This document shows positions 1,569 through 50,906 of a DNA stretch of 64,000 bases, piece by piece. How positions within the stretch are numbered: position 1 is the first letter of the stretch; every line of letters starts with the position of its first letter. The DNA lies in contig JAKZAN010000065.1 of assembly GCA_023053545.1 (NCBI GenBank), positions 124,001 through 188,000 of the forward strand. Direction: 5' to 3'. A program made the position numbers and the translations under genes. The notes beneath the pieces are model-generated. The model made no database searches, was not told the DNA's origin, and saw nothing but the letters and a program-made list of their open reading frames with translations. This DNA is from Lepidurus packardi (taxonomy: Eukaryota; Arthropoda; Branchiopoda; Notostraca; Triopsidae).

Positions 1569-3073
1569 AGCATTCTCAATGCTTGCCTCCAATTTTTTGG
1601 TAGTTTCGTTAAAATGTTATAATGTACCATGTCTTTGCCTTGGCTAGTTTTCGGTGTTTTTCTTAGAATCTCCTCTATTTCCCATTCTTTAAAAGGTGTA
1701 TCAAACTCAGTCGTGCTGTTTATATCGCCTATCATGTTATCTATTTCAAACTGCATGTGGAATATCTCCGCTTCATTTGCCTCAGTTTCCGGCTCCTCAC
1801 TTTGTATCTTGGCGAAATGCTCCACCAGCATTCCTGCTTTCTCTTCGTTTTGTTGTGTACACTTTCCCCCTGAGTTGAGTTTTACCCTATCTATATTTTC
1901 CATTGGTACTCCTTCCATTCTTCTTATTAGCTCCCACATTTGTTTTGTTGTTGTTTGCTTTCCTAGGCCCTCCACCTTCGACTTCCTGTGGGTTCTTTTC
2001 GTTTCCTGTGTGACTCTCTTGCCAATTGCTTTGTATTTTTTGTATTCTGTCAGGGTTTCAGCGTTGGGGTTTCGTTTTAATATTCTATACGTCGCTCGCA
2101 TGATGCTTATTGCTTCGCTGCAATTTTCATCCCACCACGGTTTCCGTATTCTACGTTGGCTCCCTTTTGTGTTATTTTCCCTGCTTGTCCCCTCTCTCCA
2201 GGGTATATGCTTCTTAGTGATTTTTAGGAGTGTATCTATAAAACGCTTGTATCGTTCCTCTACCCTTCCCCATCGCACTCCCTTTTCTATGTCTGTTTCC
2301 TCCATTTCTCTGCTCCACTCCTCCCAATTCGCTTTCTTAAAATTCCATCGCGGGGTCGTTTCTCTAATAACCAACCCCGTTGCTCCTTCTACTTCGAGTA
2401 TGATTGGGAAATGGTCGCTTTGTAGCATTGCCCCTATATTGACTCGCGTCTTGTCGTGCATGTTTGCTGTCGTAAACACTAGGTCAATGGTGGTGAGCGC
2501 CCCTCTATCAGTTGTGTGTGTACCAACGCCCTTTGGGGAAGCTAGTACTAAGTTTCCCCATTCTTCTAAAAACGAGAATAAAATATTCCCTCTGGTATTG
2601 TTAAAATCCTTTCCGTTCCATAAATTATGGTGTGAATTAAAATCTCCAAACATAAGACATTTCTCATCATGGCCGATTTGAGACAAATAAAATTCATATT
2701 CTTGTTTTGTTATTTTTTTCCCTGTTTGCACTTGTAGGTACATGCCGACTAGATATATATCCTGTTTTTCCCACTTTGCCTTCACACATCCTACCTCCAG
2801 TACTCCGTTTACGAAGGGTTCCATTGGTAGCCAGTCGATTTGCATTCCACTTTTCACATAAAATAAAATTCCCCCTCCTCTCTTATGAGGTCCGTCTTTT
2901 CTATAGCATTCGTACCCAGCGATTACAGCTTTCCTCCCCTCTTTCAACAACGTTTCACATATAAAAATAACATCTGGGGTCTGTTGCATCTCACTAATGT
3001 ATGCACATAAGCTGCTAAGATGCTGCGTGATGCTTCGTGCATTCCACACTAGGATTTTTATAGAGCTCCCCAT
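1553..3073 (-). CDS. ORF2 fragment, APE endonuclease, RT missing (copy 1)
   Basis: The frame is open for 506 codons from an ATG. Residues 1-230 form an apurinic endonuclease-like domain that in this family nicks target DNA. Visible landmarks are N11 in the WNARS motif, E40 in ICETLL, Y112, D144 and N146 in GDFNSHH, D197 in IDLVF, and D220-H221 in SDHFP. Residues 240-475 are a charged linker. From about residue 477 (SQGKDMVHYNILTKLP) the sequence resembles the start of a reverse transcriptase domain, and then it stops. The last four residues and the stop codon are encoded by satellite. Related ORF2 proteins are usually 900 residues or more, so about half is gone, including all polymerase motifs. 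G61 here is R in the other copies. The start overlaps the end of ORF1 by 16 nt. Confidence 0.88.
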   Translation of the reverse strand: MGSSIKILVWNARSITQHLSSLCAYISEMQQTPDVIFICETLLKEGRKAVIAGYECYRKDGPHKRGGGILFYVKSGMQIDWLPMEPFVNGVLEVGCVKAKWEKQDIYLVGMYLQVQTGKKITKQEYEFYLSQIGHDEKCLMFGDFNSHHNLWNGKDFNNTRGNILFSFLEEWGNLVLASPKGVGTHTTDRGALTTIDLVFTTANMHDKTRVNIGAMLQSDHFPIILEVEGATGLVIRETTPRWNFKKANWEEWSREMEETDIEKGVRWGRVEERYKRFIDTLLKITKKHIPWREGTSRENNTKGSQRRIRKPWWDENCSEAISIMRATYRILKRNPNAETLTEYKKYKAIGKRVTQETKRTHRKSKVEGLGKQTTTKQMWELIRRMEGVPMENIDRVKLNSGGKCTQQNEEKAGMLVEHFAKIQSEEPETEANEAEIFHMQFEIDNMIGDINSTTEFDTPFKEWEIEEILRKTPKTSQGKDMVHYNILTKLPKNWRQALRMLLLSP

Positions 3074-4446
3074 TCAAACAATATTGTAATTAGTTCTCCC
3101 TCCCTTATTAGCTCTTTTCCCAAACATAAAAACTGCCTACCTTTCTCTTCCCAGCTACTTTCGTTTAAAATTATTGGGATAATCCTTCTGATTACCTTCT
3201 GTATTATTGTCCGAATTACCCCTGGTTTTCCCCTTACCTCGCAGTTGTCAATGTCATTGTGACCATTTCCTTGTTCTTTTTGCTTTCCTGGCCTGCTTGT
3301 TTCTGCTTGCGGTGGTCTTTTGCTACCATCCTCCGTCGTAACCTTCTTCGTCCCTGCGGCTATCTCCCTGTACGTGAGTCACTGTGTGCCTGTGCTTGTT
3401 TGCGGTATCTCTTCCGCCGCCGTCTCGACTTCTCGGGTGTCAGGTGTCTTCTTGGTCTTTGATTGGGATGGTTCTTCTTGAAGTCCTGCTTTTGCTTTTT
3501 GACCGCCCTCCATTGCCCTCTTAAAAACGGTGCATTTTGTGTCTGCCGCTGAATTACTGCCGCGGCAGTTAGCACACGTGGGTGTCATACCCTGTATCTT
3601 CCTCATACAACTTTCAATTCTGTGGTCGTCCCCGCAGAAACCACAGCGCTGCTTGGCCGTACACACTGTACTTACGTGCCCAAACCTCTGGCATCTATAG
3701 CACCTAATTGGTTTGGGCTTAAATGGAATCACTGGAACTTTAAAGAACCCGATATTAACTTGACTAGGCAGTTCATTTCCTTCAAATGTAACGTGGTATG
3801 CCCCTGTGGCAAACTTGTCGCTCTCTCGGAAGCTATACAATGTTCTGACTGAGTATAGACCCATTATATTCTGCTCCATAATCTCCTCTCTGGATGTACC
3901 CCATATTTTGACTATCCCGTGCTGCAGCACTAGGGGCTTAGCCATCCGCATATGTACCTTTCATTGCCCAATACTCTTGATTGCCAATAATTTTTCCACT
4001 ATATCCGGTTGGGATGTGAAGAACAAAAGTTCCCCCCCATTGGTCACTTTTGTCTCCATTGCCGTGATTCCCAGGTTTTTAATAGCTTTTCCTAATGCAA
4101 ATGGGCTGACCCCCTTAAAGTTTTTTCCCTCCTCTATCAACTTCCCCACGACTGGTCTTTTGTCCTTTGTTCCTTCTACATATTCATTGTTCTTATGCGC
4201 TTGGCTAATCACTGACACGACTCGTTCCTCAACTACTAAGCATTCTCCTTCCGTATTTTCCTCTGTGTCTTTCTCCACAACTTTTGCCACCTTTCCTGAC
4301 CCTCCCTTTATCTTTTTCTTTGGCCTCACAGTCTTCCAACCTGGATCTTCACTGGACTGACCTTCTTCCTGCTCTACTACTAATTTCTCCTTACATCTTT
4401 TCCTGATGACAATTAAATCATCCTCGCTGGAATCCTCCATTTCCAT
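3058..4446 (-). pseudogene. ORF1 Gag-like protein, two nonsense mutations (copy 1)
   Basis: This is the same reading frame as the intact 462-residue ORF1 of copies 2 and 4, but it is interrupted twice. Codon W162 is TGA (3961-3963) and R356 is TGA (3379-3381). The first stop is shared with copy 3; the second is private to this copy. The zinc knuckle region lies between the two stops. The protein would be an RNA-binding, RNP-forming partner of ORF2. As it stands only an N-terminal piece lacking the zinc knuckles could be made. I take the ATG at 4446 as the start; a reading that begins two codons earlier relies on TTG and is unlikely in a eukaryote. Confidence 0.9.
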
Positions 4447-4992
4447 TAGCAAAACCTAAGACGTAAACCAGAACAAAAAAACTATCACTGTAACCGTAAC
4501 GAACAGAACAAACCCGTAACCAATGCCCAAGCGCGTCGCGTCACGTGTCGTGATGTCAAGCCACGCCCGTCACAGTCCGGATGATAGCGTGCTCGTGCCA
4601 CACCTTGCCACGTCAACACGCTAGCACTCGAAAAACAAATTTCCTTCCCTTTATACAGTTATACAATCAGAAACACTTTGTTAAACATAAATCACACACC
4701 AACGAAAAACCCCCACCACAAATATACACTTCCAAAAACACTATAACCGAAAAAATAACCCACCAGCTGTTTGCAGCTGCCTGGTCACAACTGTCCCAAT
4801 ATTAACACTCTCTCTCTCTAATAAACGATTAACAAAACAACAATTGTAACAATAAATCAACTAATACACAACTTCTATATCACCACGAACAAAAACTATG
4901 TATCTGCTACTAATTTTAGTGACTTTTTTCCTTGATAACTCGCACTGCATGTAAGACACGTCTATCCTGGTGTATATTCCGGTCTTCATCTG
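4447..4992 (-). promoter_or_regulatory. LINE 5' leader, copy 1
   Basis: This is about 546 nt upstream of ORF1. Read on the minus strand, the distal half is AT-rich, with a (GA)n run (4808-4819) and two CAGCTG hexamers near 4766-4780. A TATAAAG-like string lies at 4649-4655. Nearer ORF1 there is a CpG-rich stretch around 4530-4580 with a CACGTG and a short inverted repeat (TCACG, loop TGT, CGTGA). LINEs of this type carry an internal promoter in the leader, so promoter activity is plausible but not demonstrated by the sequence. Whether 4992 is the true 5' end of the element is unknown. Confidence 0.5.
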
Positions 4993-5197
4993 TTACGGGC
5001 TGAATTAATTCCTTACGGACTGAATTAAGTCCTTACGGACTTAATTAATTCTTTACGGACTGAATTAATTCCTAACGGACTGAATTAATTCTTTACGGAC
5101 TTAATTAATTCCTTACGGACTGAATTAATTCTTTAGGATTGATTGAATTCCTTACTTACTGAATTAGTTTCGGATTGAATTAATTCCTTACGGACTG

Positions 5198-7553
5198 AAT
5201 TAATTAATTACGGACTGAATTAATTCCTTACGGACTTAATTAATTCTTTACGGACTGAATTAATTCCTTTCGGACTGAATTAATTCCTTACGGACTGAAC
5301 TAATTCCTTACGGACGGAATTAATTCCTTACGGACTGAATTAATTCCTTACGGAATGAATTAATTCATTACGGACTTAATTAAATCCTTACCGACTTAAT
5401 TAATTCCTTACGGAATGAAATAATTCCTTACGGAATTAATTAATTCCTTACGGAATGAATTAATTCCTTACGGAATTAATTAATTCCTTACGGAATGAAT
5501 TAATTTCTTACGGACTTAATTAATTCCTTACGGTCTGATTTAATTCCTTACAGACTGAATTAATTCCTTACGTCCTGATTTAATTCTTTACAGACTGAAT
5601 TAATTCCTTACGAACTTAATTAATTCCTTACGGACGGAATTAATTCCTTACGGACTGAATTAATTCTATACGGAATGAATTAATTCATTACGTACTTAAT
5701 TAAATTCTTACCGACTTAATTAATTCCTTACGGAATGAATTAATTCCTTACGGAATGAATTAATTCCCTACGGACTTAATTAATTCATTTCGGACTGAAT
5801 TAATTCCCTACGGACTTAATTAATTCATTTCGGACTGAATTAATTCCTTACGGACTGAATTAATTCCTTACGGACTGAATTAGTACCTTACGGACTGAAT
5901 TAATTCTTTATGATTGATTGAATTCCTTACTTACTGAATTAGTTAGTTACGGACTGAATTAATTCCTTACGGACTGAATTAACTAATTACGGACTGAATT
6001 AACTACTTACGGACTGCATTAATTCTTTACGGACTGAATTATTTCCTTACGGACTTAATTAATTCCTTACGGACTTAATTAATTCCTGACGTACTGAATT
6101 AATTCCTTACGAACTGAATTAATTCTTTACGGACTGAATTAATTCCTTACGGACTGAATTAATTCCTTACGGACTGAACTAATTCCTTACGGACTTAATT
6201 AATTCCTTACGGACTGCACAAATTCCTTACGGACTTAATAAATTCCTTACGGACTTAATTAATTCCTTACGGACTGAATTAATTCTTTAGGATTGATTGA
6301 ATTCCATTCTTACTGAATTAATTCCTTACGGAATGAATTAATTCCTTACGGATTTAATTAATTCCTTACGGACTTAATTAATTAATTACGGACTGAATTA
6401 ATTCCTTACGGACTTAATTAATTCTTTACGGACTGAATTAATTCCTTTCGGACTGAATTAATTCCTTACGGACTGAACTAATTCCTTACGGACGGAATTA
6501 ATTCCTTACGGACTGAATTAATTCCTTACGGAATGAATTAATTCATTACGGACTTAATTAAATCCTTACCGACTTAATTAATTCCTTACGGAATGAAATA
6601 ATTCCTTACGGAATTAATTAATTCCTTACGGAATGAATTAATTCCTTACGGAATTAATTAATTCCTTACGGAATGAATTAATTTCTTACGGACTTAATTA
6701 ATTCCTTACGGTCTGATTTAATTCCTTACAGACTGAATTAATTCCTTACGTCCTGATTTAATTCTTTACAGACTGAATTAATTCCTTACGAACTTAATTA
6801 ATTCCTTACGGACGGAATTAATTCCTTACGGACTGAATTAATTCTATACGGAATGAATTAATTCATTACGTACTTAATTAAATTCTTACCGACTTAATTA
6901 ATTCCTTACGGAATGAATTAATTCCTTACGGAATGAATTAATTCCCTACGGACTTAATTAATTCATTTCGGACTGAATTAATTCCCTACGGACTTAATTA
7001 ATTCATTTCGGACTGAATTAATTCCTTACGGACTGAATTAATTCCTTACGGACTGAATTAGTACCTTACGGACTGAATTAATTCTTTATGATTGATTGAA
7101 TTCCTTACTTACTGAATTAGTTAGTTACGGACTGAATTAATTCCTTACGGACTGAATTAACTAATTACGGACTGAATTAACTACTTACGGACTGCATTAA
7201 TTCTTTACGGACTGAATTATTTCCTTACGGACTTAATTAATTCCTTACGGACTTAATTAATTCCTGACGTACTGAATTAATTCCTTACGAACTGAATTAA
7301 TTCTTTACGGACTGAATTAATTCCTTACGGACTGAATTAATTCCTTACGGACTGAACTAATTCCTTACGGACTTAATTAATTCCTTACGGACTGCACAAA
7401 TTCCTTACGGACTTAATAAATTCCTTACGGACTTAATTAATTCCTTACGGACTGAATTAATTCTTTAGGATTGATTGAATTCCATTCTTACTGAATTAAT
7501 TCCTTACGGAATGAATTAATTCCTTACGGATTTAATTAATTCCTTACGGACTT
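5198..7553. repeat. 1178-bp tandem duplication in satellite
   Basis: There are two head-to-tail units, about 5198-6375 and 6376-7553. Private variants recur at exactly +1178: the cctttcgg monomer (5271 and 6449), the tctatacgg monomer (5671 and 6849), the tctttatgattg monomer (5911 and 7089) and the gcacaaattcc monomer (6216 and 7394). I saw no clear differences among the variants compared, so the duplication is recent relative to monomer divergence. Boundaries are uncertain by about one monomer. Confidence 0.88.
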
Positions 7554-7630
7554 AATTAATTCCTTACGGACTTAATTAATTCCTTACGGACTTGATAAAT
7601 TCCTTACGGACTTAATTAATTCCTTACGGA

Positions 7631-8275
7631 CTGACTTAATTAATTCCTTACGGACTGAATTAATTCTTTACGGATTGATTCCTTGAATTCCTGAATTAAT
7701 TCCTTACGGACTTACTGAATTAATCCTTTACGGACTGAATTACGGAATTCTTTGAATTAATTCCTTACGGACTGAACAAATACGGACTTAATTAATTCCT
7801 TACGGACTGAATTAATTCCTTACGGACTTACGGACTTAAATTAATTAAATCCGGATTTAATTAATTCCTTACGGACTGCGGACTGAATTAATTCCTTACG
7901 GGACTTTACGGGCTGTAATTCATTACGGATAATTAATTCCTTACGGACTTAATTAATTCGGACTGAATTACGGACTACGGAATTAATTAATTCCTTCTTA
8001 ATTAATTCCTTACGGGATTCCTTGACTTAATTAATTGAATTAATTCCTTTCCGGACTGAATTAATTCCTTATTACGGACTGAATTAATTCCTAATTCCTT
8101 ACGGGACTTAATTAATTCTGAATTAATTCATTACGGACTTAATTAATTCCTTACGGACTGAACATTAATTCCTTACGGACTTAATTAATCCTTTCCTTAC
8201 GGACTGAATTAATTCTTTACGGACTGAATTAATTCCTTACGGACTGAATTAATGGACTGAATTAATTCTTTACGG
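7631..8275. repeat. Register-disrupted satellite patch
   Basis: Satellite words are present but the 20-bp periodicity fails repeatedly. Examples are ggattgattccttgaatt near 7673, cggacttacggacttaaatt near 7825, a tgcggactgaatt fusion near 7878, gggactttacgggctgtaat near 7900, and ggactgaattacggactacg near 7961. Many small deletions, insertions and duplications of 2-15 bp are packed into about 640 bp. Elsewhere the register is nearly strict over tens of kilobases. This may be a consensus or assembly error in a hard tandem array, or a real degenerate patch. Confidence 0.75.
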
Positions 8276-11200
8276 ACTTAATTAATTCCTTACGGACTTA
8301 ATTAATTCCTTACGGACTGCACAAATTCCTTACGGACTTAATTAATTCCTTACGGACTGAATTAATTCCTTACGGACTGAATTAATTCTTTAGGATTGAT
8401 TGAATTCCATTTTTACTGAATTAATTCCTTACGGACTGAATTAATTCCTCACGGATTTAATTAATTCCTTACGGACTTAATTAATTCCTTACGGACTGCA
8501 CAAATTCCTTACGGACTGAATTAATTCCTTACGGACTGAATTAATTCTTTAGGATTGATTGAATTCCTTTCTTACTGAATTAATTCCTTATGGACTGAAT
8601 TAAATCCTTACGGATTTAATTAATTCCTTACGGACTTAATTAATTCGTTGCGGACTGAATTAATTCCTTACGGACTGAATTAATTCATTACGGACTGAAT
8701 TAATTCTTTACGGGCTGAAGTAATTCATTACGGACTTAATTAATTCCTTACGGACTGAATTAATTCTTTAGGATTGATTGAATTCCTTCCTTACTGAATT
8801 AATTCCTTACGGACTGAATTAATTCCTTATGGATTTAATTAATTCCTTACGGAATTAATTAATTCCTTACGGACTTAATTAATTCCTTACGGACTTGATA
8901 AATTCCTTACGGACTTAATTAATTCGTTGCGGACTGAATTAATTCCTTACGGACTGAATTAATTCCTTACGGACTGAATTAATTCTTTACGGACTGAATT
9001 AATTCATTACGGACTGAATTAATTTCTTACGGACTTAATTAATTCCTTACGGACTGAACAAATTCCTTACGGACTTAATTTTTTTTCCTTTACGGACTGA
9101 ATTAATTCATTACGGACTTAATTAAATCCTTACCGACTTAATTAATTCCTTACGGACTGACTTAATTCTTTATGATTGAATGAATTCCTTACTTACTGAA
9201 TTAGTTAGTTACGGACTGAATTAATTCCTTACGGACTGAATAAATTAATTACGGACTGAATTAACTACTTACGGACTGAATTAATCCTTTACGGACTGAA
9301 TAAATTCCTTGTGGACTGAATTAATTCCTTACGGACTTAATTAATTCATTACGGACTTAATTATTTCCTTACGGAATGAATTAATTCCTTACGGACTGAA
9401 CAAATTCCTTACGGACTGAATTAATTCCTATTGGACTGAATTAATTCTTTACGGACTGAATTAATTCCTTACGGACTGAACATATTCCTTACGGACTTAA
9501 TTAACTCCTTACGGACTTAATTAATTCTTTACGGACTGAATTAATTCCTTACGGATTGAATTAATTTTTTACGGACTTAATTAATTCCTTACGGACTTAA
9601 TTAATTCCTTACGGACTGCACAAATTCCTTACGGACTTAATTAATTCCTTACGGACTGAATTAATTCCTTACGGACTGAATTAATTCTTTAGGATTGATT
9701 GAATTCCATTTTTACTGAATTAATTCCTTACGGACTGAATTAATTCCTCACGGATTTAATTAATTCCTTACGGACTTAATTAATTCCTTACGGACTGCAC
9801 AAATTCCTTACGGACTTAATTAATTCCTTACGGACTGAATTAATTCTTTAGGATTGATTGAATTCCATTCTTACTGAATTAATTCCTTACGGACTGAATT
9901 AATTCCTTACGGATTTAATTAATTCCTTACGGAATTAATTAATTCCTTACGGACTTAATTAATTCCTTACGGACTGAATTAATTCATTACGGACTGAATT
10001 AATTCTTTATGGGCTGAAGTAATTCATTACGGACTTAATTAATTCCTTACGGACTGAATTAATTCTTTAGGATTGATTGAATTCCTTTCTTACTGAATTA
10101 ATTCCTTACGGACTGAATTAATTCCTTACGGATTTAATTAATTCCTTACGGAATTAATTAATTCCTTACGGACTTAATTAATTCCTTACGGACTTGATAA
10201 ATTCCTTACGGACTTGATAAATTCCTTACGGACTTAATTAATTCCTTACGGACTGAATTAATTCTTTAGGATTGATTGAATTCCTTTCTTACTGAATTAA
10301 TTCCTTATGGACTGAATTAATTCCTTACGGATTTAATTAATTCCTTACGGACTTAATTAATTCGTTGCGGACTGAATTAATTCCTTACGGACTGAATTAA
10401 TTCCTTACGGACTGAATTAATTCTTTACGGACTGAATTAATTCATTACGGACTGAATTAATTTCTTACGGACTTAATTAATTCCTTAAGGACTGAACAAA
10501 TTCCTTACGGACTTAATTTTTTTTCCTTTACGGACTGAATTAATTCATTACGGACTGAATTAATTCCTTACGGACTTAATTAATTCCTTACGGACTAAAC
10601 ATATTCCTTACGGACTTAATTAACTCCTTACGGACTTAATTAATTCTTTACGGACTTAATTAATTCCTTACGGACTTAATTAATTCCTTACGGACTGCAC
10701 AAATTCCTAACGGACTTAATAAATTCCTTACGGACTGAATTAATTCCTTACGGACTGAATTAATTAATTACGGACTGAATTAATCCTTTACGGACTGAAT
10801 TAATTCCTTGGGGACTGAATTAATTCCTTACGGACTTAATTAATTCATTACGGACTTAATTATTTCCTTACGGACTGAACAAATTCCTTACGGACTTAAT
10901 TAATTCCTTACGGACTGAATTAATTCCTTACGGACTTAATTATTTCCTTACGGACTGAACAAATTCCTTACGGACTTAATTAATTCCTTACGGATTGAAT
11001 TAATTCCTTACGGACTGAATTAATTCTTTACGGACTGAATTAATTCATTACGGACTGAATTAATTCCTTACGGACTTAATTAATTCCTTACGGACTGAAC
11101 TTATTCCTTACGGACTTAATTAACTCCTTACGGACTTAATTAATTCTTTACGGACTGAATTAATTCCTTACGGACTGAATTAATTTTTTACGGACTTAAT

Positions 11201-13633
11201 TAATTCCTTACGGACTGAACAAATTCCTTACGGACTTAATAAATTCCTTACGGACTTAATTAATTCCTTACTGACTGAATTAATTCTTTAGGATTGATTG
11301 AATTCCTTTCTTACTGAATTAATTCCTTACGGACTGAATTAATTCCTTACGGATTTAATTAATTCCTTACGGACTTAATTAATTCCTTACGGACTTGATA
11401 AATTCCTTACGGACTTAATTAATTCCTTACGGACTGAATTAATTCTTTAGGATTGATTGAATTCCTTTCTTACTGAATTAATTCCTTATGGACTGAATTA
11501 ATTCCTTACGGATTTAATTAATTCCTTACGGACTTAATTAATTCGTTGCGGACTGAATTAATTCCTTACGGACTGAATTAATTCTTTCGGACTGAATTAA
11601 TTCATTACGGACTGAATTAATTTCTTACGGACTTAATTAATTCCTTACGGACTGAACAAATTCCTTACGGACTTAATTAATTCCTTACGGACTTAATTAA
11701 TTCTTTACGGACTGAAATAATTCCTTACGGACTGAATTAATTCCTTACGGACTTAATTAATACTTTACGGACTGAATTAATTCCTTACGGACTGAATTAA
11801 TTCCTTACGGACTTAATTTTTTTTCCTTTACGGACTGAATTAATTCATTACGGACTGAATTAATTCCTTACGGACTTAATTAATTCCTTACGGACTTAAT
11901 TAATTCTTTACGGACTGAAATAATTCCTTACGGACTGAATTAATTCCTTACGGACTTAATTAATACTTTACGGACTGAATTAATTCCTTACGGACTGAAT
12001 TAATTCCTTACGGACTGAATTAATTCTTTCGGACTGAATTAATTCATTACGGACTGAATTAATTTCTTACGGACTTAATTAATTCCTTACGGACTGAACA
12101 AATTCCTTACGGACTTAATTTTTTTTCCTTTACGGACTGAATTAATTCATTACGGACTGAATTAATTCCTTACGGACTTAATTAATTCCTTACGGACTTA
12201 ATTAATTCTTTACGGACTGAAATAATTCCTTACGGACTGAATTAATTCCTTACGGACTTAATTAATACTTTACGGACTGAATTAATTCCTTACGGACTGA
12301 ATTAATTCCTTACGGACTGAATTAATTCTTTCGGACTGAATTAATTCATTACGGACTGAATTAATTTCTTACGGACTTAATTAATTCCTTACGGACTGAA
12401 CAAATTCCTTACGGACTTAATTAATTCCTTACTGACTGAATTAATTCTTTAGGATTGATTGAATTCCTTTCTTACTGAATTAATTCCTTACGGACTGAAT
12501 TAATTCCTTACGGATTTAATTAATTCCTTACGGACTTAATTAATTCCTTACGGACTTGATAAATTCCTTACGGACTTAATTAATTCCTTACGGACTGAAT
12601 TAATTCTTTAGGATTGATTGAATTCCTTTCTTACTGAATTAATTCCTTATGGACTGAATTAATTCCTTACGGATTTAATTAATTCCTTACGGACTTAATT
12701 AATTCGTTGCGGACTGAATTAATTCCTTACGGACTGAATTAATTCTTTCGGACTGAATTAATTCATTACGGACTGAATTAATTTCTTACGGACTTAATTA
12801 ATTCCTTACGGACTGAACAAATTCCTTACGGACTTAATTTTTTTTCCTTTACGGACTGAATTAATTCATTACGGACTGAATTAATTAATTACGGACTGAA
12901 TTAATTCCTTACGGACTTAATTAATTCCTTACGGACTGAACAAATTCCTTACGGACTTAATTAATTCCTTACGGACTTAATTAATTCTTTACGGACTGAA
13001 ATAATTCCTTACGGACTGAATTAATTCCTTACGGACTTAATTAAAACTTTACGGACTGAATTAATTCCTTACGGACTGAATTAATTCCTTACGGACTTAA
13101 TTTTTTTTCCTTTACGGACTGAATTAATTCATTACGGACTGAATTAATTCCTTACGGACTTAATTAATTCCTTACGGACTTAATTAATTCTTTACGGACT
13201 GAAATAATTCCTTACGGACTGAATTAATTCCTTACGGACTTAATTAATACTTTACGGACTGAATTAATTCCTTACGGACTGAATTAATTCCTTACGGACT
13301 GAATTAATTCTTTCGGACTGAATTAATTCATTACGGACTGAATTAATTTCTTACGGACTTAATTAATTCCTTACGGACTGAACAAATTCCTTACGGACTT
13401 AATTTTTTTTCCTTTACGGACTGAATTAATTCATTACGGACTGAATTAATTCCTTACGGACTTAATTAATTCTTTACGGACTGAAATAATTCCTTACGGA
13501 CTGAATTAATTCCTTACGGACTTAATTAATACTTTACGGACTGAATTAATTCCTTACGGACTGAATTAATTCCTTACGGACTTAATTAATTCCTTACGGA
13601 CTGAACAAATTCCTTACGGACTGAACAAATTCC

Positions 13634-31692: not shown

Positions 31693-31862
31693 TTACGGGC
31701 TGAATTAATTCCTTACGGACTGAATTAAGTCCTTACGGACTTAATTAATTCTTTACGGACTGAATTAATTCCTAACGGACTGAATTAATTCTTTACGGAC
31801 TTAATTAATTCATTACGGACTGAATTAATTCTTTACGGACTGAATTAATTCCTTACGGACTG

Positions 31863-38784: not shown

Positions 38785-39365
38785 CGGACTTAATTAATTC
38801 GTTGGGGACTGAATTAATTCCTTACGGACTGAATTAATTCCTTACGGACTGAATTAATTCTTTCGGACTGAACAAATTCCTTACGGACTTAATTTTTTTT
38901 CCTTTACGGACTGAATTAATTCATTACGGACTGAATTAATTCCTTACGGACTTAATTAATTCCTTACGGACTGAACAAATTCCTTACGGACTTAATTAAT
39001 TCCTTACGGACTTAATTAATTCTTTACGGACTGAAATAATTCCTTACGGACTGAATTAATTCCTTACGGACTTAATTAATACTTTACGGACTGAATTAAT
39101 TCCTTACGGACTGAATTAATTCCTTACGGACTGAATTAATTCTTTCGGACTGAATTAATTCATTACGGACTGAATTAATTTCTTACGGACTTAATTTTTT
39201 TTCCTTTACGGACTGAATTAATTCATTACGGACTGAATTAATTCCTTACGGACTTAATTAATACTTTACGGACTGAATTAATTCCTTACGGACTGAATTA
39301 ATTCCTTACGGACTTAATTAATTCCTTACGGACTTAATTAATTCCTTACGGACTGAACAAATTCC

Positions 39366-40888
39366 TTACGGACTTAATAAAAGCATTCTCAATGCTTGCC
39401 TCCAATTTTTTGGTAGTTTCGTTAAAATGTTATAATGTACCATGTCTTTGCCTTGGCTAGTTTTCGTTGTTTTTCTTAAAATCTCCTCTATTTCCCATTC
39501 TTTAAAAGTTGTATCAAACTCAGTCGTGCTGTTTATATCGCCTATCATGTTATCTATTTCAAACTGCATGTGGAATATCTCCGCTTCATTTGCCTCAGTT
39601 TCCGGCTCCTCACTTTGTATCTTGGCGAAATGCTCCACCAGCATTCCTGCTTTCTCTTCGTTTTGTTGTGTACACTTTCCCCCTGAGTTGAGTTTTACCC
39701 TATCTATATTTTCCATTGGTACTCCTTCCATTCTTCTTATTAGCTCCCACATTTGTTTTGTTGTTGTTTGCTTTCCTAGGCCCTCCACCTTCGACTTCCA
39801 GTGGGCTCTTTTCGTTTCCTGTGTGACTCTCTTGCCAATTGCTTTGTATTTTTTTTATTCTGTCAGGGTTTCAGCGTTGGGGTTTCGTTTTAATATTCTA
39901 TACTTCGCTCGCATGATGCTTATTGCTTCGCTGCAATTCTCATCCCACCACGGTTTCCGTATTCTACGTTGGCTCCCTTTTGTGTTATTTTCCCTGCTTG
40001 TCCCCTCTCTCCAGGGTATATGCTTCTTAGTGATTTTTAGGAGTGTATCTATAAAACGCTTGTATCGTTCCTCTACCCTTCCCCATCGCACTCCCTTTTC
40101 TATGTCTGTTTCCTCCATTTCTCTGCTCCACTCCTCCCAATTCGCTTTCTTAAAATTCCATCGCGGGGTCGTTTCTCTAATAACCAACCCCGTTGCTCCT
40201 TCTACTTCGAGTATGATTGGGAAATGGTCGCTTTGTAGCATTGCCCCTATATTGACTCGCGTCTTGTCGTGCATGTTTGCTGTCGTAAACACTAGGTCAA
40301 TGGTGGTGAGCGCCCCTCTATCAGTTGTGTGTGTACCAACGCCCTTTGGGGAAGCTAGTACTAAGTTTCCCCATTCTTCTAAAAACGAGAATAAAATATT
40401 CCCTCTGGTATTGTTAAAATCCTTTCCGTTCCATAAATTATGGTGTGAATTAAAATCTCCAAACATAAGACATTTCTCATCGTGGCCGATTTGAGACAAA
40501 TAAAATTCATATTCTTGTTTTGTTATTTTTTTCCCTGTTTGCACTTGTAGGTACATGCCGAAAAGAGATATATATCCTGTTTTTCCCACTTTGCCTTCAC
40601 ACATCCTACCTCCAGTACTCCGTTTACGAAGGGTTCCATTGGTAGCCAGTCGATTTGCATTCCACTTTTCACATAAAATAAAATTCCCCCTCCTCTCTTA
40701 TGAGGTCTGTCTTTTCTATAGCATTCGTACCCAGCGATTACAGCTTTCCTCCCCTCTTTCAACAACGTTTCACATATAAAAATAACATCTGGGGTCTGTT
40801 GCATCTCACTAATGTATGCACATAAGCTGCTAAGATGCTGCGTGATGCTTCGTGCATTCCACACTAGGATTTTTATAGAGCTCCCCAT
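39366..40888 (-). pseudogene. ORF2 fragment, frameshift plus nonsense (copy 5)
   Basis: This is the endonuclease part of ORF2 with two private lesions. At 40561-40567 aaaagag replaces actag, a net +2 that shifts the frame near codon 109, just before the Y112 region. At 39855-39857 codon Y344 is TAA inside the linker. The catalytic D144/N146, D197 and D220/H221 positions are readable only in the frame opened after the shift. The fragment ends at the same truncation point in satellite as the others. Confidence 0.9.
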
Positions 40889-42262
40889 TCAAACAATATT
40901 GTAATTAGTTCTCCCTCCCTTATTAGCTCTTTTCCCAAACATAAAAACTGCCTACCTTTCTCTTTCCAGCTACTTTCGTTTAAAATTATTGGGATAATCC
41001 TTCTGATTACCTTCTGTATTATTGTCCGAATTACCCCTGGTTTTCCCCTTACCTCGCAGTTGTCAATGTCATTGTGACCATTTCCTTGTTCTTTTTGCTT
41101 TCCTGGCCTGCTTGTTTCTGCTTGCGGTGGTCTTTTGCTACCATCCTCCGTCGTAACCTTCTTCGTCCCTGCGGCTATCTCCCGGTACGTGAGTCTCTGT
41201 GTGCCTGTGCTTGTTTGCGGTATCTCTTCCGCCGCCGTCTCGACTTCTCGGGTGTCAGGTGTCTTCTTGGTCTTTGATTGGGATGGTTCTTCTTGAAGTC
41301 CTGCTTTTGCTTTTTGACCGCCCTCCATTGCCCTCTTAAAAACGGTGCATTTTGTGTCTGCCGCTGAATTACTGCCGCGGCAGTTAGCACACGTGGGTGT
41401 CATACCCTGTATCTTCCTCATACAACTTTCAATTCTGTGGTCGTCCCCGCAGAAACCACAGCGCTGCTTGGCCGTACACACTGTACTTACGTGCCCAAAC
41501 CTCTGGCATCTATAGCACCTAATTGGTTTGGGCTTAAATGGAATCACTGGAACTTTAAAGAACCCGATATTAACTTGACTAGGCAGTTCATTTCCTTCAA
41601 ATGTAACGTGGTATACCCCTGTGGCAAACTTTTCGCTCTCTCGGAAGCTATACAATGTTCTGACTGAGTATAGACCCATTATATTCTGCTCCATAATCTC
41701 CTCTCTGGATGTACCCCATATTTTGACTATCCCGTGCTGCAGCACTAGGGGCTTAGCCATCCGCATATGTACCTTCCATTGCCCAATACTCTTGATTGCC
41801 AATAATTTTTCCACTATATCCGGTTGGGATGTGAAGAACAAAAGTTCCCCCCCCATTGGTCACTTTTGTCTCCATTGCCGTGATTCCCAGGTTTTTAATA
41901 GCTTTTCCTAATGCAAATGGGCTGACCCCCTTAAAGTTTTTTCCCTCCTCTATCAACTTCCCCACGACTGGTCATTTGTCCTTTGTTCCTTCTACATATT
42001 CATTGTTCTTATGCGCTTGGCTAATCACTGACACCTCTCGTTCCTCAACTACTAAGCATTCTCCTTCCGTATTTTCCTCTGTGTCTTTCTCCACAACTTT
42101 TGCCACCTTTCCTGACCCTCCCTTTATCTTTTTCTTTGCCCTCACAGTCTTCCAACCTGGATCTTCACTGGACTGACCTTCTTCCTGCTCTACTACTAAT
42201 TTCTCCTTACATCTTTTCCTGATGACAATTAAATCATCCTCGCTGGAATCCTCCATTTCCAT
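40873..42262 (-). pseudogene. ORF1 Gag-like protein, nonsense plus frameshift (copy 5)
   Basis: Codon R97 is TGA (41972-41974). A run of eight Cs at 41847-41854 on the plus strand replaces the seven seen in other copies, a +1 shift at G137-G138. W162 is intact here. The zinc knuckle region downstream of the shift is readable but detached from the start. The homopolymer change could be a sequencing error; the nonsense change is a plain substitution. Confidence 0.88.
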
Positions 42263-42807
42263 TAGCAAAACCTAAGACGTAAACCAGAACAAAAAAACTA
42301 TCACTGTAACCGTAACGAACAGAACAAACCCGTAACCAATGCCCAAGCGCGTCGCGTCACGTGTCGTGATGTCAAGCCACGCCCGTCACAGTCCGGATGA
42401 TAGCGTGCTCGTGCCACACCTTGCCACGTCAACACGCTAGCACTCGAAAACAAATTTCCTTCCCTTTATACAGTTATACAATCAGAAACACTTTGTTAAA
42501 CATAAATCACACACCAACGAAAAACCCCCACCACAAATATACACTTCCAAAAACACTATAACCGAAAAAATAACCCACCAGCTGTTTGCAGCTGCCTGGT
42601 CACAACTGTCCCAATATTAACACTCTCTCTCTCTAATAAACGACTAACAAAACAACAATTGTAACAATAAATCAACTAATACACAACTTCTATATCACCA
42701 CGAACAAAAACTATGTATCTGCTACTAATTTTAGTGACTTTTTTCCTTGATAACTCGCACTGCATGTAAGACACGTCTATCCTGGTGTATATTCCGGTCT
42801 TCATCTG
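42263..42807 (-). promoter_or_regulatory. LINE 5' leader, copy 5
   Basis: This is 545 nt, near-identical to the leaders of copies 3 and 4, with the same (GA)n run, CAGCTG pair and CpG-rich stretch. Promoter function is inferred only. Confidence 0.48.
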
Positions 42808-45800
42808 TTACGGGCTGAATTAATTCCTTACATACTGAATTAAGTCCTTACGGACTTAATTAATTCTTTACGGACTGAATTAATTCCTAACGGACTGAAT
42901 TAATTCTTTACGGACTTAATTAATTCATTACGGACTGAATTAATTCTTTACGTACTGAATTAATTCCTTACGGACTTAATTAAATCCTTACCGACTTAAT
43001 TAATTCCTTACGGAATGAATTAATTCCTTACGGACTGAATTAATTCTTTATGATTGCATGAATTCCTTACTTACTGAATTAGTTAGTTACGGACTGAATT
43101 AATTCCTTACGGACTGAATAAATTAATTACGGACTGAATTAACTACTTACGGACTGAATTAATCCTTTACGGACCGAATAAATTCCTTGGGGACTGAATT
43201 AATTCCTTACGGACTTAATTAATTCATTACGGACTTAATTATTTCCTTACGGAATGAATTAATTCCTTACGGACTGAACAAATTCCTTACGGACTGAATT
43301 AATTCCTATTGGACTGAATTAATTCTTTACGGACTGAATTAATTCCTTACGGACTGAACATATTCCTTACGGACTTAATTAACTCCTTACGGACTTAATT
43401 AATTCTTTACGGACTGAATTAATTCCTTACGGATTGAACTAATTTTTTACGGACTTAATTAATTCCTTACGGACTAAATTAATTCCTTACGGACTGCACA
43501 AATTCCTTACGGACTTAATAAATTCCTTACGGACTTAATTAATTCCTTACGGACTGAATTAATTCCTTACGGATTTAATTAATTCCTTACGGACTTAATT
43601 AATTCCTTACGGACCTAATTAATTCCTTACGGACTTGATAAATTCCTTACGGACTTAATTATTTCCTTACGGACTGAATTAATTCTTTAGGATTGATTGA
43701 ATTCCTTTCTTACTGAATTAATTCCTTTCTTACTGAATTATTTCCTTATGGACTGAATTAATTCCTTACGGATTTAATTAATTCCTTACGGACTTAATTA
43801 ATTCGTTGCGGACTGAATTAATTCCTTACGGACTGAATTAATTCCTTACGGACTGAATTAATTCTTTAGGATTGATTGAATTCCTTTCTTACTGAATTAA
43901 TTCCTTACGGACTGAATTAATTCCTTACGGATTTAATTAATTCCTTACGGAATTAATTAATTCCTTACGGACTGCACAAATTCCTTACGGACTTAATAAA
44001 TTCCTTACGGACTTAATTAATTCCTTACGGACTGAATTAATTCTTTAGGATTGATTGAATTCCTTTCTTACTGAATAAATTCCTTATGGACTGAATTAAT
44101 TCCTTACGGATTTAATTAATTCCTTACGGACTTAATTAATTCCATACGGACTTAATTAATTCGTTGCGGACTGAATTAATTCCTTACGGACTGAATTAAT
44201 TCCTTACGGACTGAATTAATTCTTTACGGGCTGAAGTAATTCATTACGGACTTAATTAATTCCTTACGGACTGAATTAATTCTTTAGGATTGATTGAATT
44301 CCTTTCTTACTGAATTAATTCCTTACGGACTGAATTAATTCCTTACGGATTTAATTAATTCCTTACGGACTTAATTAATTCCTTACGGACTTAATTAATT
44401 CCTTACGGACTTGATAAATTCCTTACGGACTTAATTAATTCCTTACGGACTGAATTAATTCTTTAGGATTGATTGAATTCCTTTCTTACTGAATTAATTC
44501 CTTATGGACTGAATTAATTCCTTACGGATTTAATTAATTCCTTACGGACTTAATTAATTCCTTACGGACTGAATTAATTCTTTACGGACTGAATTAATTC
44601 ATTACGGACTGAATTAATTCCTTACGGACTGAATTAATTCCTTACGGACTGAATTAATTCTTTACGGACTGAATTAATTCATTACGGACTGAATTAATTT
44701 CTTACGGACTTAATTAATTCCTTACGGACTGAACAAATTCCTTACGGACTTAATTAATTCTTTACGGACTAAAATAATTCCTTACGGACTGAATTAATTC
44801 CTTACGGATTTAATTAATACTTTACGGACTGGATTAATTCCTTACGGACTTAATTAATTCTTTACGGACTAAAATAATTCCTTACGGACTGAATTAATTC
44901 CTTACGGATTTAATTAATACTTTACGGACTGGATTAATTCCTTACGGACTGAATTAATTCCTTACGGACGGAATTAATTCCTTACGGACTGAATTAATTA
45001 ATTACGGACTGAATTAATTCCTTACGGACTTAATTAATTCTTTACGGACTGAATTAATTCCTTTCGGACTGAATTAATTCCTTACGGACTGAACTAATTC
45101 CTTATGGACGGAATTAATTCCTTACGGACTGAATTAATTCCTTACGCAATGAATTAATTCCTTACGGAATGAATTATTTCCTTACGGAATGAATTAATTC
45201 TTTACGGAATGAATTAATTTCTTACGGACTTAATTAATTCCTTACGGCCTGATTTAATTCCTTACAGACTGAATTAATTCCTTACGTCCTGATTTAATTC
45301 TTTACAGACTGAATTAATTCCTTATGGACTGAATTAATTCCTTACGAACTTAATTAATTCCTTACGGACTTAATTAATTCCTTACGGACTTAATTAATTC
45401 CTTACGGACTGAATTAATTCTTTAGGATTGATTGAATTCCTTTCTTACTGAATTAATTCCTTATGGACTGAATTAATTCCTTACGGATTTAATTAATTCC
45501 TTACGCACTTAATTAATTCGTTGCGGACTGAATTAATTCCTTACGGACTGAATTAATTCATTACGGACTGAATTAATTCTTTACGGGCTGAAGTAATTCA
45601 TTACGGACGGAATTAATTCCTTACGGACTGAATTAATTAATTACGGACTGAATTAATTCCTTACGGACTTAATTAATTCTTTACGGACTGAATTAATTCC
45701 TTTCGGACTGAATTAATTCCTTACGGACTGAACTAATTCCTTATGGACGGAATTAATTCCTTACGGACTGAATTAATTCCTTACGCAATGAATTAATTCC

Positions 45801-48800
45801 TTACGGAATGAATTATTTCCTTACGGAATGAATTAATTCCTTACGGAATGAATTAATTTCTTACGGACTTAATTAATTCCTTACGGCCTGATTTAATTCC
45901 TTACAGACTGAATTAATTCCTTACGTCCTGATTTAATTCTTTACAGACTGAATTAATTCCTTATGGACTGAATTAATTCCTTACGAACTTAATTAATTCC
46001 TTACGGACTTAATTAATTCCTTACGGACTTAATTAATTCCTTACGGACTGAATTAATTCTTTAGGATTGATTGAATTCCTTTCTTACTGAATTAATTCCT
46101 TATGGACTGAATTAATTCCTTACGGATTTAATTAATTCCTTACGGACTTAATTAATTCGTTGCGGACTGAATTAATTCCTTACGGACTGAATTAATTCCT
46201 TACGGACTGAATTAATTCTTTACGGACTGAATTAATTCATTACGGACTGAATTAATTTCTTACGAACTTAATTAATTCCTTACGGACTGAACAAATTCCT
46301 TACGGACTTAATTTTTTTTCCTTTACGGACTGAATTAATTCATTACGGACTGAATTAATTCCTTACGGACTTAATTAATTCCTTACCGACTAAACATATT
46401 CCTTACGGACTTAATTAACTCCTTACGGACTTAATTAATTCTTTACGGACTTAATTAATTCCTTACGGACTTAATTAATTCCTTACGGACTGCACAAATT
46501 CCTAACGGACTTAATAAATTCCTTACGGACTTAATTAATTTCTTACGGACTGAATTAATTCTTTTGGATTGATTGAATTCCTTTCTTACTGAATTAATTC
46601 CTTATGGACTGAATTAATTCCTTACGGATTTAATTAATTCCTTACGGACTTAATTAATTCCATACGGACTTAATTAATTCGTTGCGGACTGAATTAATTC
46701 CTTACGGACTGAATTAATTCCTTACGGACTGAATTAATTCTTTACGGGCTGAAGTAATTCATTACGGAATTAATTAATTCCTTACGGACTGAATTAATTC
46801 TTTAGGATTGATTGAATTCCTTTCTTACTGAATTAATTCCTTACGGACTGAATTAATTCCTTACGGATTTAATTAATTCCTTACGGACTTAATTAATTCC
46901 TTACGGACTTAATTAATTCCTTACGGACTTGATAAATTCCTTACGGACTTAATTAATTCCTTACGGACTGAATTAATTCTTTAGGATTGATTGAATTCCT
47001 TTCTTACTGAATTAATTCCTTATGGACTGAATTAATTCCTTACGGATTTAATTAATTCCTTACGGACTTAATTAATTCCTTACGGACTGAATTAATTCTT
47101 TACGGACTGAATTAATTCATTACGGACTGAATTAATTCCTTACGGACTGAATTAATTCCTTACGGACTGAATTAATTCTTTACGGACTGAATTAATTCAT
47201 TACGGACTGAATTAATTTCTTACGGACTTAATTAATTCCTTACGGACTGAACAAATTCCTTACGGACTTAATTTTTTTTCCTTTACGGACTGAATTAATT
47301 CATTACGGACTGAATTAATTCCTTACGGACTTAATTAATTCCTTACGGACTGAACAAATTCCTTACGGACTTAATTAATTCTTTACGGACTAAAATAATT
47401 CCTTACGGACTGAATTAATTCCTTACGGATTTAATTAATACTTTACGGACTGGATTAATTCCTTACGGACTGAATTAATTCCTTACGGACGGAATTAATT
47501 CCTTACGTACTGAATTAATTCCTTACGGACTGAATTAATTCCTTACGGACTGAATTAATTCTTAATGATTGATTGAATTCCTTACTTACTGAATTAGTTA
47601 GTTTCGGATTGAATTAATTCCTTACGGACTGAATTAATTAATTACGGACTGAATTAATTCCTTACGGACTTAATTAATTCTTTACGGACTGAATTAATTC
47701 CTTACGGAATGAATTAATTCCTTACGGAATGAATTAATTTCTTACGGACTTAATTAATTCCTTACGGCCTGATTTAATTCCTTACAGACTGAATTAATTC
47801 CTTACGTCCTGATTTAATTCTTTACAGACTGAATTAATTCCTTATGGACTGAATTAATTCCTTACGAACTTAATTAATTCCTTACGGACTTAATTAATTC
47901 CTTACGGACTTAATTAATTCCTTACGGACTGAATTAATTCTTTAGGATTGATTGAATTCCTTTCTTACTGAATTAATTCCTTATGGACTGAATTAATTCC
48001 TTACGGATTTAATTAATTCCTTACGCACTTAATTAATTCGTTGCGGACTGAATTAATTCCTTACGGACTGAATTAATTCATTACGGACTGAATTAATTCT
48101 TTACGGGCTGAAGTAATTCATTACGGACTTAATTAATTCCTTACGGACTGAATTAATTCTTTAGGATTGATTGAATTCCTTTCTTTCTGAATTAATTCCT
48201 TACGGACTGAATTAATTCCTTACGGATTTAATTAATTCCTTACGGAATTAATTATTTCCTTACGGACTTAATTAATTCCTTACGGACTTGATAAATTCCT
48301 TACGGACTTAATTAATTCCTTACGGACTGAATTAATTCTTTAGGATTGATTGAATTCCTTTCTTACTGAATTAATTCCTTATGGACTGAATTAATTCCTT
48401 ACGGATTTAATTAATTCCTTACGGACTTAATTAATTCGTTGCGGACTGAATTAATTCCTTACGGACTGAATTAATTCCTTACGGACTGAATTAATTCTTT
48501 ACGGACTGAATTAATTCATTACGGACTGAATTAATTTCTTACGGACTTAATTAATTCCTTACGGACTGAACAAATTCCTTACGGACTTAATTTTTTTTCC
48601 TTTACGGACTGAATTAATTCATTACGGACTGAATTAATTCCTTAAGGACTTAATTAATTCTTACGGAATAAACATATTCCTTACGGACTTAATTAACTCC
48701 TTACGGACTTAATTAATTCTTTACTGACTTAATTAATTCCTTACGGACTTAATTAATTCCTTACGGACTGCACAAATTCCTAACGGACTTAATAAATTCC

Positions 48801-50636
48801 TTACGGACTTAATTAATTTCTTACGGACTGAATTAATTCTTTTGGATTGATTGAATTCCTTTCTTACTGAATTAATTCCTTATGGACTGAATTAATTCCT
48901 TACGGATTTAATTAATTCCTTACGGACTTAATTAATTCCATACGGACTTAATTAATTCGTTGCGGACTGAATTAATTCCTTACGGACTGAATTAATTCCT
49001 TACGGACTGAATTAATTCTTTACGGGCTGAAGTAATTCATTACGGACTTAATTAATTCCTTACGGACTGAATTAATTCTTTAGGATTGATTGAATTCCTT
49101 TTTTACTGAATTAATTCCTTACGGACTGAATTAATTCCTTACGGATTTAATTAATTCCTTACGGACTTAATAAATTCCTTACGGACTGAATTAATTCCTT
49201 ACGGACTGAATTAATTAATTAAGGACTGAATTAATCCTTTACGGACTGAATTAATTCCTTGGGGACTGAATTAATTCCTTACGGACTTAATTATTTCATT
49301 ACGGACTTAATTATTTCCTTACGGACTTAATTAATTCCTTACGTAATGAATTAATTCCTTACGGACTGAACAAATTCCTTACGGACTTAATTAATTCCTT
49401 ACGGACTGAATTAATTCCTTACGGACTGAATTAATTCTTTACGGACTGAATTAATTCATTACGGACTGAATTAATTCCTTACGGACTTAATTAATTCCTT
49501 ACGGACTGAACTTATTCCTTACGGACTTAATTAACTCCTTGCGGACTTAATTAATTCTTTACGGACTGAATTAATTCCTTACGGACTGAATTAATTTTTT
49601 ACGGACTTAATTAATTCCTTACGGACTGAACAAATTCCTTACGGACTTAATAAATTCCTTACGGACTTAATTAATTCCTTACTGACTGAATTAATTCTTT
49701 AGGATTGATTGAATTCATTTCTTACTGAATTAATTCCTTACGGACTGAATTAATTCCTTACGGATTTAATTAATTCCTTACGGACTTGATAAATTCCTTA
49801 CGGACTTAATTAATTCCTTACGGACTGAATTAATTCTTTAGGATTGATTGAATTCCTTTTTTACTGAATTAATTCCTTACGGACTGAATTAATTCCTTAC
49901 AGATTTAATTAATTCCTTACGGACTTAATTAATTGTTTACGGACTTGATAAATTCCTTACGGACTTAATTAATTCCTTACGGACGGAATTAATTCTTTAG
50001 GATTGACTGAATTCCTTTCTTACTGAATTAATTCCTTATGGACTGAATTAATTCCTTACGGATTTAATTAATTCCTTACGGACTTAATTAATTCGTTGTG
50101 GACTGAATTAATTCCTTACGGACTGAATTAATTCCTTACGGACTGAATTAATTCTTTCGGACTGAATTAATTCATTACGGACTGAATTAATTTCTTACGG
50201 ACTTAATTAATTCCTTACGGACTGAACAAATTCCTTACGGAATTAATTTTTTTTCCTTTACGGACTGAATTAATTCATTACGGACTGAATTAATTCCTTA
50301 CGGACTTAATTAAGTCCTTACGGACTGAACAAATTCCTTACGGACTGAACAAATTCCTTACGGACTTAATTTTTTTTCCTTTACGGACTGAATTAATTCA
50401 TTACGGACTGAATTAATTCCTTACGGACTTAATTAATTCTTTACGGACTGAAATAATTCCTTACGGACTGAATTAATTCCTTACGGACTTAATTAATACT
50501 TTACGGACTGAATTAATTCCTTACGGACTGAATTAATTCCTTACGGACTTAATTAATTCCTTACGGACTTAATTAATTCCTTACGGACTTAATTAATTCC
50601 TTACGGACTGAACAAATTCCTTACGGACTTAATGAA
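42808..50636. repeat. 20-bp satellite array, block F
   Basis: This is 7.8 kb of satellite with no gene. It includes a 639-bp tandem duplication (44961-46238), with a related third segment at about 47700-48120, and a 100-bp repeat of the aaaataattcc/ggattaattcc monomers (44761 and 44861). A small register slip lies near 48660 (aattcttacggaataaacat). From about 49240 to the end it matches 27050-28268, the left flank of LINE copy 4. Confidence 0.96.
44961..46238. repeat. 639-bp tandem duplication in satellite
   Basis: The units are 44961-45599 and 45600-46238. The cttacggacgg/attaattacgg boundary (44961 and 45600) and the private cttacgcaatg monomer (45141 and 45780) recur at +639. One difference is cttacgcactt near 45503 against cttacggactt in the second unit. 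The cgcactt form also appears near 48023, showing a further related segment. Confidence 0.83.
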
Positions 50637-50671
50637 AGCATTCTCAATGCTTGCCTCCAATTTTTTGGTAG
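50637..50671 (-). mobile_element. 35-bp LINE remnant, internal deletion
   Basis: Only the extreme 3' 35 bp of the truncated LINE remain here (agcattctcaatgcttgcc and onward to ggtag). They are joined directly to the satellite that normally follows the LINE 5' end (ttacgggctgaattaattcc). The three bases gtt at the joint occur at both parental breakpoints. This is an internal deletion of about 3.39 kb that keeps both outer satellite flanks. One flank base differs (ttaatgaa instead of ttaataaa). Confidence 0.93.
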
Positions 50672-50906
50672 TTACGGGCTGAATTAATTCCTTACGGACT
50701 GAATTAAGTCCTTACGGACTTAATTAATTCTTTACGGACTGAATTAATTCCTAACGGACTGAATTAATTCTTTACGGACTTAATTAATTCATTACGGACT
50801 GAATTAATTCTTTACGGACTGAATTAATTCCTTACGGACTGAATTAATTCCTTACGGACTGAACTAATTCCTTACGGACGGAATTAATTCCTTACGTACT
50901 GAATTA

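Follow-up and report, generated by a model that had tools for sequence, protein, structure and literature searches.

How does a 20-bp satellite come to carry many copies of one fragment of a long interspersed nuclear element (LINE), all cut at the same two points? The question is raised by a 64,000-bp stretch of the Lepidurus packardi genome, termed here the window (C54:124001-188000 of a 108.6-Mb assembly of 344 contigs), where five copies of such a fragment and a remnant lie within the satellite. By far the most probable answer is that one insertion took place and was then amplified with the satellite by homologous exchange. Shared junctions, a shared filler and similar flanks show a single origin, and mosaic copies show homologous exchange between units; we infer that unequal crossing-over and conversion were also the copying process. 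The junction maps were made on assembled contigs. Within the window the LINE copies and the satellite are arranged as follows.

1..1568, plus strand: 20-bp satellite, low-side flank of copy 1
1569..4992, minus strand: LINE fragment copy 1, 3,424 bp, made up of element nt 23-3439 and the 5′ filler
4993..13649, plus strand: 20-bp satellite, interval between copies 1 and 2
13650..17073, minus strand: LINE fragment copy 2, 3,424 bp
17074..21983, plus strand: 20-bp satellite, interval between copies 2 and 3
21984..25406, minus strand: LINE fragment copy 3, 3,423 bp
25407..28268, plus strand: 20-bp satellite, interval between copies 3 and 4
28269..31692, minus strand: LINE fragment copy 4, 3,424 bp
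31693..39381, plus strand: 20-bp satellite, interval between copies 4 and 5
39382..42807, minus strand: LINE fragment copy 5, 3,426 bp
42808..50636, plus strand: 20-bp satellite, from copy 5 to the remnant
50637..50671, minus strand: LINE remnant, 35 bp, the rest lost up to the high-side junction, with a GTT overlap at the break (by eye)

The sense strand of the element is the minus strand, and all window copies run in this one direction. Start-to-start spacings of the copies and the remnant are 12081, 8334, 6285, 11113 and 11255 bp, and any two of the five copies are 13-26 substitutions apart. At the high-side junction CATCTG is followed by TTACGGGCTG in 5/5 full copies. The sequence TTACGGGCTG alone has 31 matches in the window and is not diagnostic; the 16-mer CATCTGTTACGGGCTG, which crosses the junction, has exactly five. 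At the low-side junction cttaat(a/g)aa is followed by AGCATTCTC at 6/6 sites, and the break falls in an A-run, where the element reads TTAAAAAGCATTC and overlaps the satellite by three nt (AAA). A first-pass annotation, made from the sequence alone, had reported the coordinates, the irregular spacing (12.1, 8.3, 6.3, 11.1 and 11.3 kb), a common low-side junction in five copies and the remnant, a common high-side junction, and the same orientation and length. All of these were reproduced, with the CATCTG edge in all five full copies, which lie on the minus strand and measure 3,423-3,426 bp.

The same annotation had proposed that the junctions be mapped genome-wide, and exact matches were found only on C54 and C263. 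The high-junction pattern has 12 matches in the whole assembly, all on the plus strand of C54, and the low-junction pattern has 17, with 16 on the plus strand of C54 and one on the minus strand of C263. A full copy at C54 49479 carries a one-base variant of the low junction, which brings the low-junction sites to 18, of which 17 are on C54. These sites belong to the remnant, to the 12 full copies and to five copies shortened to nt 1-1331, of which four are on C54 and the fifth on C263. All 12 full copies found are on C54 and in one orientation. With copy 1 as the query, a DNA search gave 48 matches, and 40 of 67 first-look candidates were scored; the counts are therefore lower bounds. With the exact junction patterns, the LINE-bearing segment was not found in the assembly outside C54 and C263, despite the widespread satellite. 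One full copy is split by a long terminal repeat (LTR) element (C54:36338-39718) that has CTTG on both sides, is presumably Ty3/gypsy-like and is apparently internally deleted.

Long, near-identical satellite is difficult to assemble, and the copies might be a single locus repeated through mis-assembly. That is very improbable, given that 55 of the 77 variable sites among the 12 full copies are private to one copy, that spacings differ and shortenings are nested, and that one copy has the LTR-element insertion.

The LINE itself can be read from dispersed copies of ~5.9 kb on C221, C143 and C35, the C35 copy sharing 99.5% identity with both others. Two long open reading frames (ORFs) are present in the C221 copy, one of 467 aa and one of 1,267 aa. 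The first has CCHC-like motifs (by eye) and no Pfam match; the second matches RVT_1 (2.1e-37), Exo_endo_phos_2 (1.2e-17) and RNase_H (1.3e-13). The RNase H domain follows the reverse transcriptase, and we take this layout of endonuclease, reverse transcriptase and RNase H to be that of the I group of LINEs. A CAA-rich tail and flanking duplications of 13-14 bp are seen by eye at C221, C143 (one mismatch) and C35, although duplications within tandem repeats are weaker evidence and that of C35 lies inside a LINE stub. The window fragment corresponds to element nt 23-3439. It is without the first 22 nt, ends inside ORF2 before the reverse transcriptase domain and retains the endonuclease domain only. 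A PDB search with the ORF2 part of the fragment gave nothing at E 0.001, and scans of the window with Rfam (gathering thresholds) and ARAGORN gave no matches. Copy 1 has the following parts.

1569..3073, minus strand: 5′ part of ORF2, endonuclease domain, ending before the reverse transcriptase domain
3058..4455, minus strand: ORF1 region, broken by stops, with CCHC-like motifs (by eye) and no Pfam match
4969..4988, minus strand: 20-nt filler at the 5′ junction

The filler takes the place of the leader. Array copies lack the 22-nt leader seen in the dispersed copies and have, on the high side, 23 different nt next to the satellite. Twenty nt spanning this 23-nt stretch (GGTGTATATTCCGGTCTTCA) are found exactly at eight other sites, on C1, C16 and C38, of which two were fetched (C1 and C38). 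The matching gene on C1, when translated, has the look of what we take to be a hAT transposase. Thus a patch from another locus appears to have closed the 5′ end of the fragment. The filler is present in 12/12 full C54 copies, exactly in 11 and with one changed base in copy 4, and outside the array it was not found joined to the LINE; the full-length dispersed copies that were read, three in number, carry the 22-nt leader. As such an accident would hardly recur, the shared filler can be taken as the mark of one event. The 23-nt leader was also considered as the 5′ end of another LINE subfamily, and this was rejected, the C1 and C38 matches lying in other sequence.

Satellite flanks were compared by BLAST blocks and same-phase controls; stepwise flank extension lost register at block indels. 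Of the 18 low flanks 16 were used, together with 13 high flanks, from the 12 full copies and the remnant. Over 100 bp, low flanks have a mean pairwise identity of 96.7% (lowest pair 82.0%), compared with 87.3% for random same-phase satellite pairs in the window, 4.1% of which reach 95% or more. High flanks average 98.3% (lowest pair 90.0%), against 86.2% in the control, where 2.7% of pairs reach that level. Over 300 bp the means are 93.6% (low) and 93.1% (high), and similarity fades within ~200-750 bp. The longest shared block, of copies 3 and 4, extends for 4,419 bp at 98.6% identity. The averages thus exceed the same-phase control, and so do most pairs, but not all of them.

Could a LINE that targets satellites have inserted independently, many times, at one monomer position? 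The family does land in satellites, at 7/8 inferred independent insertions (6/7 without the window's own) versus a rough 13%, and the C221 insertion lies in the same 20-bp satellite. Separate events, however, would not produce the same 20-nt filler, the same 3′ truncation within ORF2 and the same order of flanking variants, and in the C221 copy the leader is different and the 3′ end complete. The first-pass annotation had argued that independent insertions would not share breakpoints; filler, truncation and variant order all agree with it, and repeated insertion is hardly credible here.

How the fragment arrived is a separate matter. The fragment and its hAT-derived patch might have been captured as DNA in double-strand-break repair, with later amplification as above. 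Such a capture would suit the lack of a target-site duplication, the 3′ truncation, the patch from another locus and the 3-nt AAA overlap at the 3′ break. It is possible but doubtful: the fragment starts just 22 nt from the 5′ end of the element, which is rare for a random fragment, and the flanking duplications at C221, C143 and C35 (by eye) suggest target-primed insertion in this LINE family.

The genealogy of the copies bears on what followed a single insertion. The 12 full copies have a mean of 17.3 differences over ~3,410 sites (0.51%), and array copies differ from the three dispersed copies by 67-77. Fifty-seven substitutions separate all 12 from all three; 26 alignment columns are gaps in the dispersed copies and 20 are gaps in the array. 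A 12-nt loss in ORF1, common to all 12, is in frame; it may be a subfamily difference and was therefore left out of the count of decay. The shortened copies at 192121 and 208843 and that on C263 form one lineage (ultrafast bootstrap 100), with 21-27 differences from the full copies in the ~1.33 kb compared (1.6-2.0%). This deeper split points to an insertion of greater age, with homogenisation on C54 coming later.

Mosaic copies are the evidence for exchange. Shortened copies 189157 and 195897 are mutually identical and nest with copy 5 and the copy at 202248 (ultrafast bootstrap 91-98), whose private change at 1181-1185 they carry. At 1266 and at the deletion junction they match the other shortened copies. 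A boundary of crossover or conversion can, from these alignments, be placed within 81 bp. Unit 208843, in which the common low flank stands on a divergent LINE body, is a second mosaic. Moreover, the four-gamete test fails for 47/231 pairs of the 22 informative sites.

Amplification of a fixed composite unit by a rolling or extrachromosomal circle, reinserted as an array, is the other mechanism to be weighed. The single orientation of the 12 full copies found would follow from it, and the 55 singletons among 77 variable sites, with a Tajima's D of -1.49, are consistent with a burst. On the other hand, spacing is irregular, flanks diverge within hundreds of bases and there is no common unit length, which makes this unlikely, although a burst of circle amplification followed by shuffling is possible. 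The first-pass annotation had offered both unequal exchange and rolling-circle amplification. Of these, exchange is directly supported by the mosaic copies; rolling-circle copying of a fixed unit fits the spacing poorly. Its term ‘higher-order unit’ is too strong for spacings of 6.3-12.1 kb and no shared unit length. Its central proposal, one insertion and then co-amplification with the satellite, is backed by the junction map, flanks, filler and copy genealogy.

Several observations weigh against, or qualify, one insertion amplified by homologous exchange. No target-site duplication is visible at the array insertion. A search for the empty site, with the low and high satellite flanks joined, gave a best insert-free full-length match of 95.8%, which equals the maximum of 60 sham joins. 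Most flank pairs are above background but not all, some low-flank pairs having just 82% identity over 100 bp. The right side of the mapped switch consists of one base and the deletion junction only. Divergence of copies is weakly related to distance in the array (Mantel r 0.22, p 0.09), and stepwise tandem growth is thus unsupported. Crossing-over and conversion would both fit the mosaics and are indistinguishable here. Finally, variable sites in ORF1 fall 9/6/13 by codon position, a mild third-position excess.

With these points in mind, a single insertion followed by exchange can be put as a series of steps. One copy of the 5.9-kb LINE would have entered a 20-bp satellite array. Judging by the junctions, target-primed insertion would have left out the 22 5′ nt, with the 5′ end sealed by the 20-nt hAT-like patch, and the 3′ part would have been lost at the A-run. 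Unequal homologous exchange, together with gene conversion, would then have multiplied and shuffled the segment of satellite, LINE and satellite within the array, and single units would later have been shortened, to the nt 1-1331 type and the 35-bp remnant.

Coding capacity is decaying in the array. Frames are broken by stops or frameshifts in ORF1 of 9/12 copies, and the ORF2 part is broken in 7/12. Variable sites in the ORF2 part are distributed 14/9/11 over the codon positions. The fixed differences from dispersed copies in this part (3, 4 and 10) are biased to third positions, as expected if most of them arose before insertion. The LINE pieces thus look like passengers, with no good sign, in the codon patterns, of protein-level selection within the array.

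The satellite has the consensus TTACGGACTGAATTAATTCC, and Tandem Repeats Finder places it at 5-1565 and 4993-64000, the latter span running across the later LINE copies. Autocorrelation peaks are found at multiples of 20 bp, at one-base-shifted neighbours (179, 199, 219) and, inside single stretches, at the kb scale. No constant unit length was seen in the LINE spacing, autocorrelation or self-comparison of the window, only local duplications, and the array can therefore be described as overlapping block duplications. The clearest block lies beyond the remnant.

50672..58829, plus strand: satellite block of 4,079 bp, present twice in tandem, head to tail (50672-54750 and 54751-58829)

The two blocks are 99.36% identical over 4,347 bp, and the left edge of the duplication coincides with the deletion junction of the 35-bp LINE remnant. 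Elsewhere the satellite is widespread: an exact 40-mer has 30,554 matches in the assembly, those listed all being on C1. Among the matches listed, 40-mers are scattered across the last 91 kb of the 14.05-Mb C1 contig (C1:13957482-14045756), most of them on one strand but with a short stretch inverted, which suggests a chromosome-end or centromeric block. A literature search with three forms of the 20-bp monomer found no paper; subscription literature was mostly outside this search, and it is not claimed that the case is unpublished.

This raises the question of whether the LINE family seeks satellites. A search with the leader found 11 sites in the assembly, of which 10 are flanked by a short-period tandem repeat, C2 being the exception. 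The flanks are of a 10-bp repeat on C4 (six sites, one with just 56 bp of repeat), a 12-bp repeat on C35 and C143, and a 20-bp repeat on C221 and C99. At C4:568463-892227, five of six LINE 5′ ends share one junction in the 10-bp satellite (GGTTTAAACT), in both orientations, and two 3′ ends on C4 also share a junction. Flanks of the five sites are 83-99% alike over 150 bp, a range that has no control for the 10-bp satellite; common descent of the five is likely, judging by junction and flanks. The 7/8 inferred independent insertions cited above count them as one and include that of the window, which was the starting point of the analysis. The baseline satellite share is rough: 1/23 samples on C1-C6 and 11/32 on small contigs, ~13% overall. 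Samples were few and partly hand-picked, with 3/23 and 12/32 points set by place; the lone C1-C6 match is one of the three placed points, and the remaining points on small contigs have a single offset in common. Binomial tests give nominal values of 4e-6 (7/8) and 3e-5 (6/7), or 0.003 and 0.008 if insertions are confined to small contigs. Survival of insertions in satellites could also cause the excess.

A search with the LINE 3′ end gave 70 matches, 50 of them on C35 and all of these on one strand. At C35:238228-528846, the 15 loci fetched all consist of a ~50-bp LINE stub in a 12-bp satellite (CGGGTCTCTAAT). The stubs in these 15 sit between copies of a 14-bp repeat, AACAGACGTGCACT, with one base changed in two loci. 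As read from these repeats, the stub is clearly a 5′-truncated insertion amplified with its target-site duplication, i.e. a second co-amplified insertion. The full-length C35 copy landed inside one such stub. Of the 20 3′-end matches outside C35, 10 were fetched; eight of the 10 continue into tandem repeats, and two of the eight have the same junction.

Other groupings of LINE sequence were seen as well. Six endonuclease-domain matches lie on one strand at C102:42398-73043, 5.6-6.9 kb apart, and a 3-kb piece of C102 that was read holds 913 bp of the same 20-bp satellite as the window. Same-strand groups of endonuclease matches are also present on C88, C79, C83 and C103. Three copies of a related LINE (73% identical) are spaced regularly, by 5,539 bp, at C99:45309-59177.

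It may tentatively be proposed, though the odds are against it, that the LINE family homes to unrelated short-period satellites (of 10-, 12-, 20- and 45- to 123-bp periods) via chromatin or some other feature rather than target sequence, and that its insertions repeatedly join amplifying arrays. If so, several composite satellites were seeded by one LINE family, and LINE pieces are barcodes of satellite turnover.

A 20-bp satellite is nearly featureless, and exchange of its units is hard to trace; a 3.4-kb passenger that carries mutations makes the units readable. One contig here records a single origin, two unit lineages, shortenings and an exchange boundary mapped within 81 bp. The same tracing can be applied to the C35 array. 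Whether the LINE family seeks satellites is the more interesting question, and if the preference holds, satellite-directed LINE insertion becomes testable in a small genome.

How does this array compare with known systems? A close likeness is with the Responder (Rsp) satellite of Drosophila, which has interspersed clusters of G5, a Jockey-type LINE, so that in both cases LINE pieces stand inside a tandem satellite (PMC12871663). Conversion and unequal crossing-over are believed to homogenise the repeats of Rsp (PMC7214746). The Rsp repeats are of 120 bp and in dimers, compared with 20 bp here, and two G5 islands are described, whereas one insertion is present here in 12 full copies and several shortened ones. 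Among reads that leave human alpha satellite for other sequence, LINE1 is the transposable element seen most often (PMC4920115); there insertions are reported, and amplification of one insertion is the feature of the present array. Transposon sequence may also join tandem arrays, and unequal crossing-over has been proposed for this (PMC7214746, PMC6947457). Satellites derived from transposable elements differ: the present satellite occurs widely without the LINE, and the LINE is a passenger, not the source of the monomer.

Elements that concentrate in satellites offer a further comparison. Tal1 of Arabidopsis is an LTR element. Retroelements concentrated in satellite or centromeric DNA include Tal1 (PMC5857280) and G2/Jockey-3 of Drosophila (PMC6516634). 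Compared with these, the present LINE is known from sequence alone, and its satellite preference rests on a small sample. Filler DNA, too, is known at LINE1 insertions (PMC5857280). Thus LINE pieces in satellites and exchange-driven satellite turnover are already known, and the present array is an unusually readable case of both.

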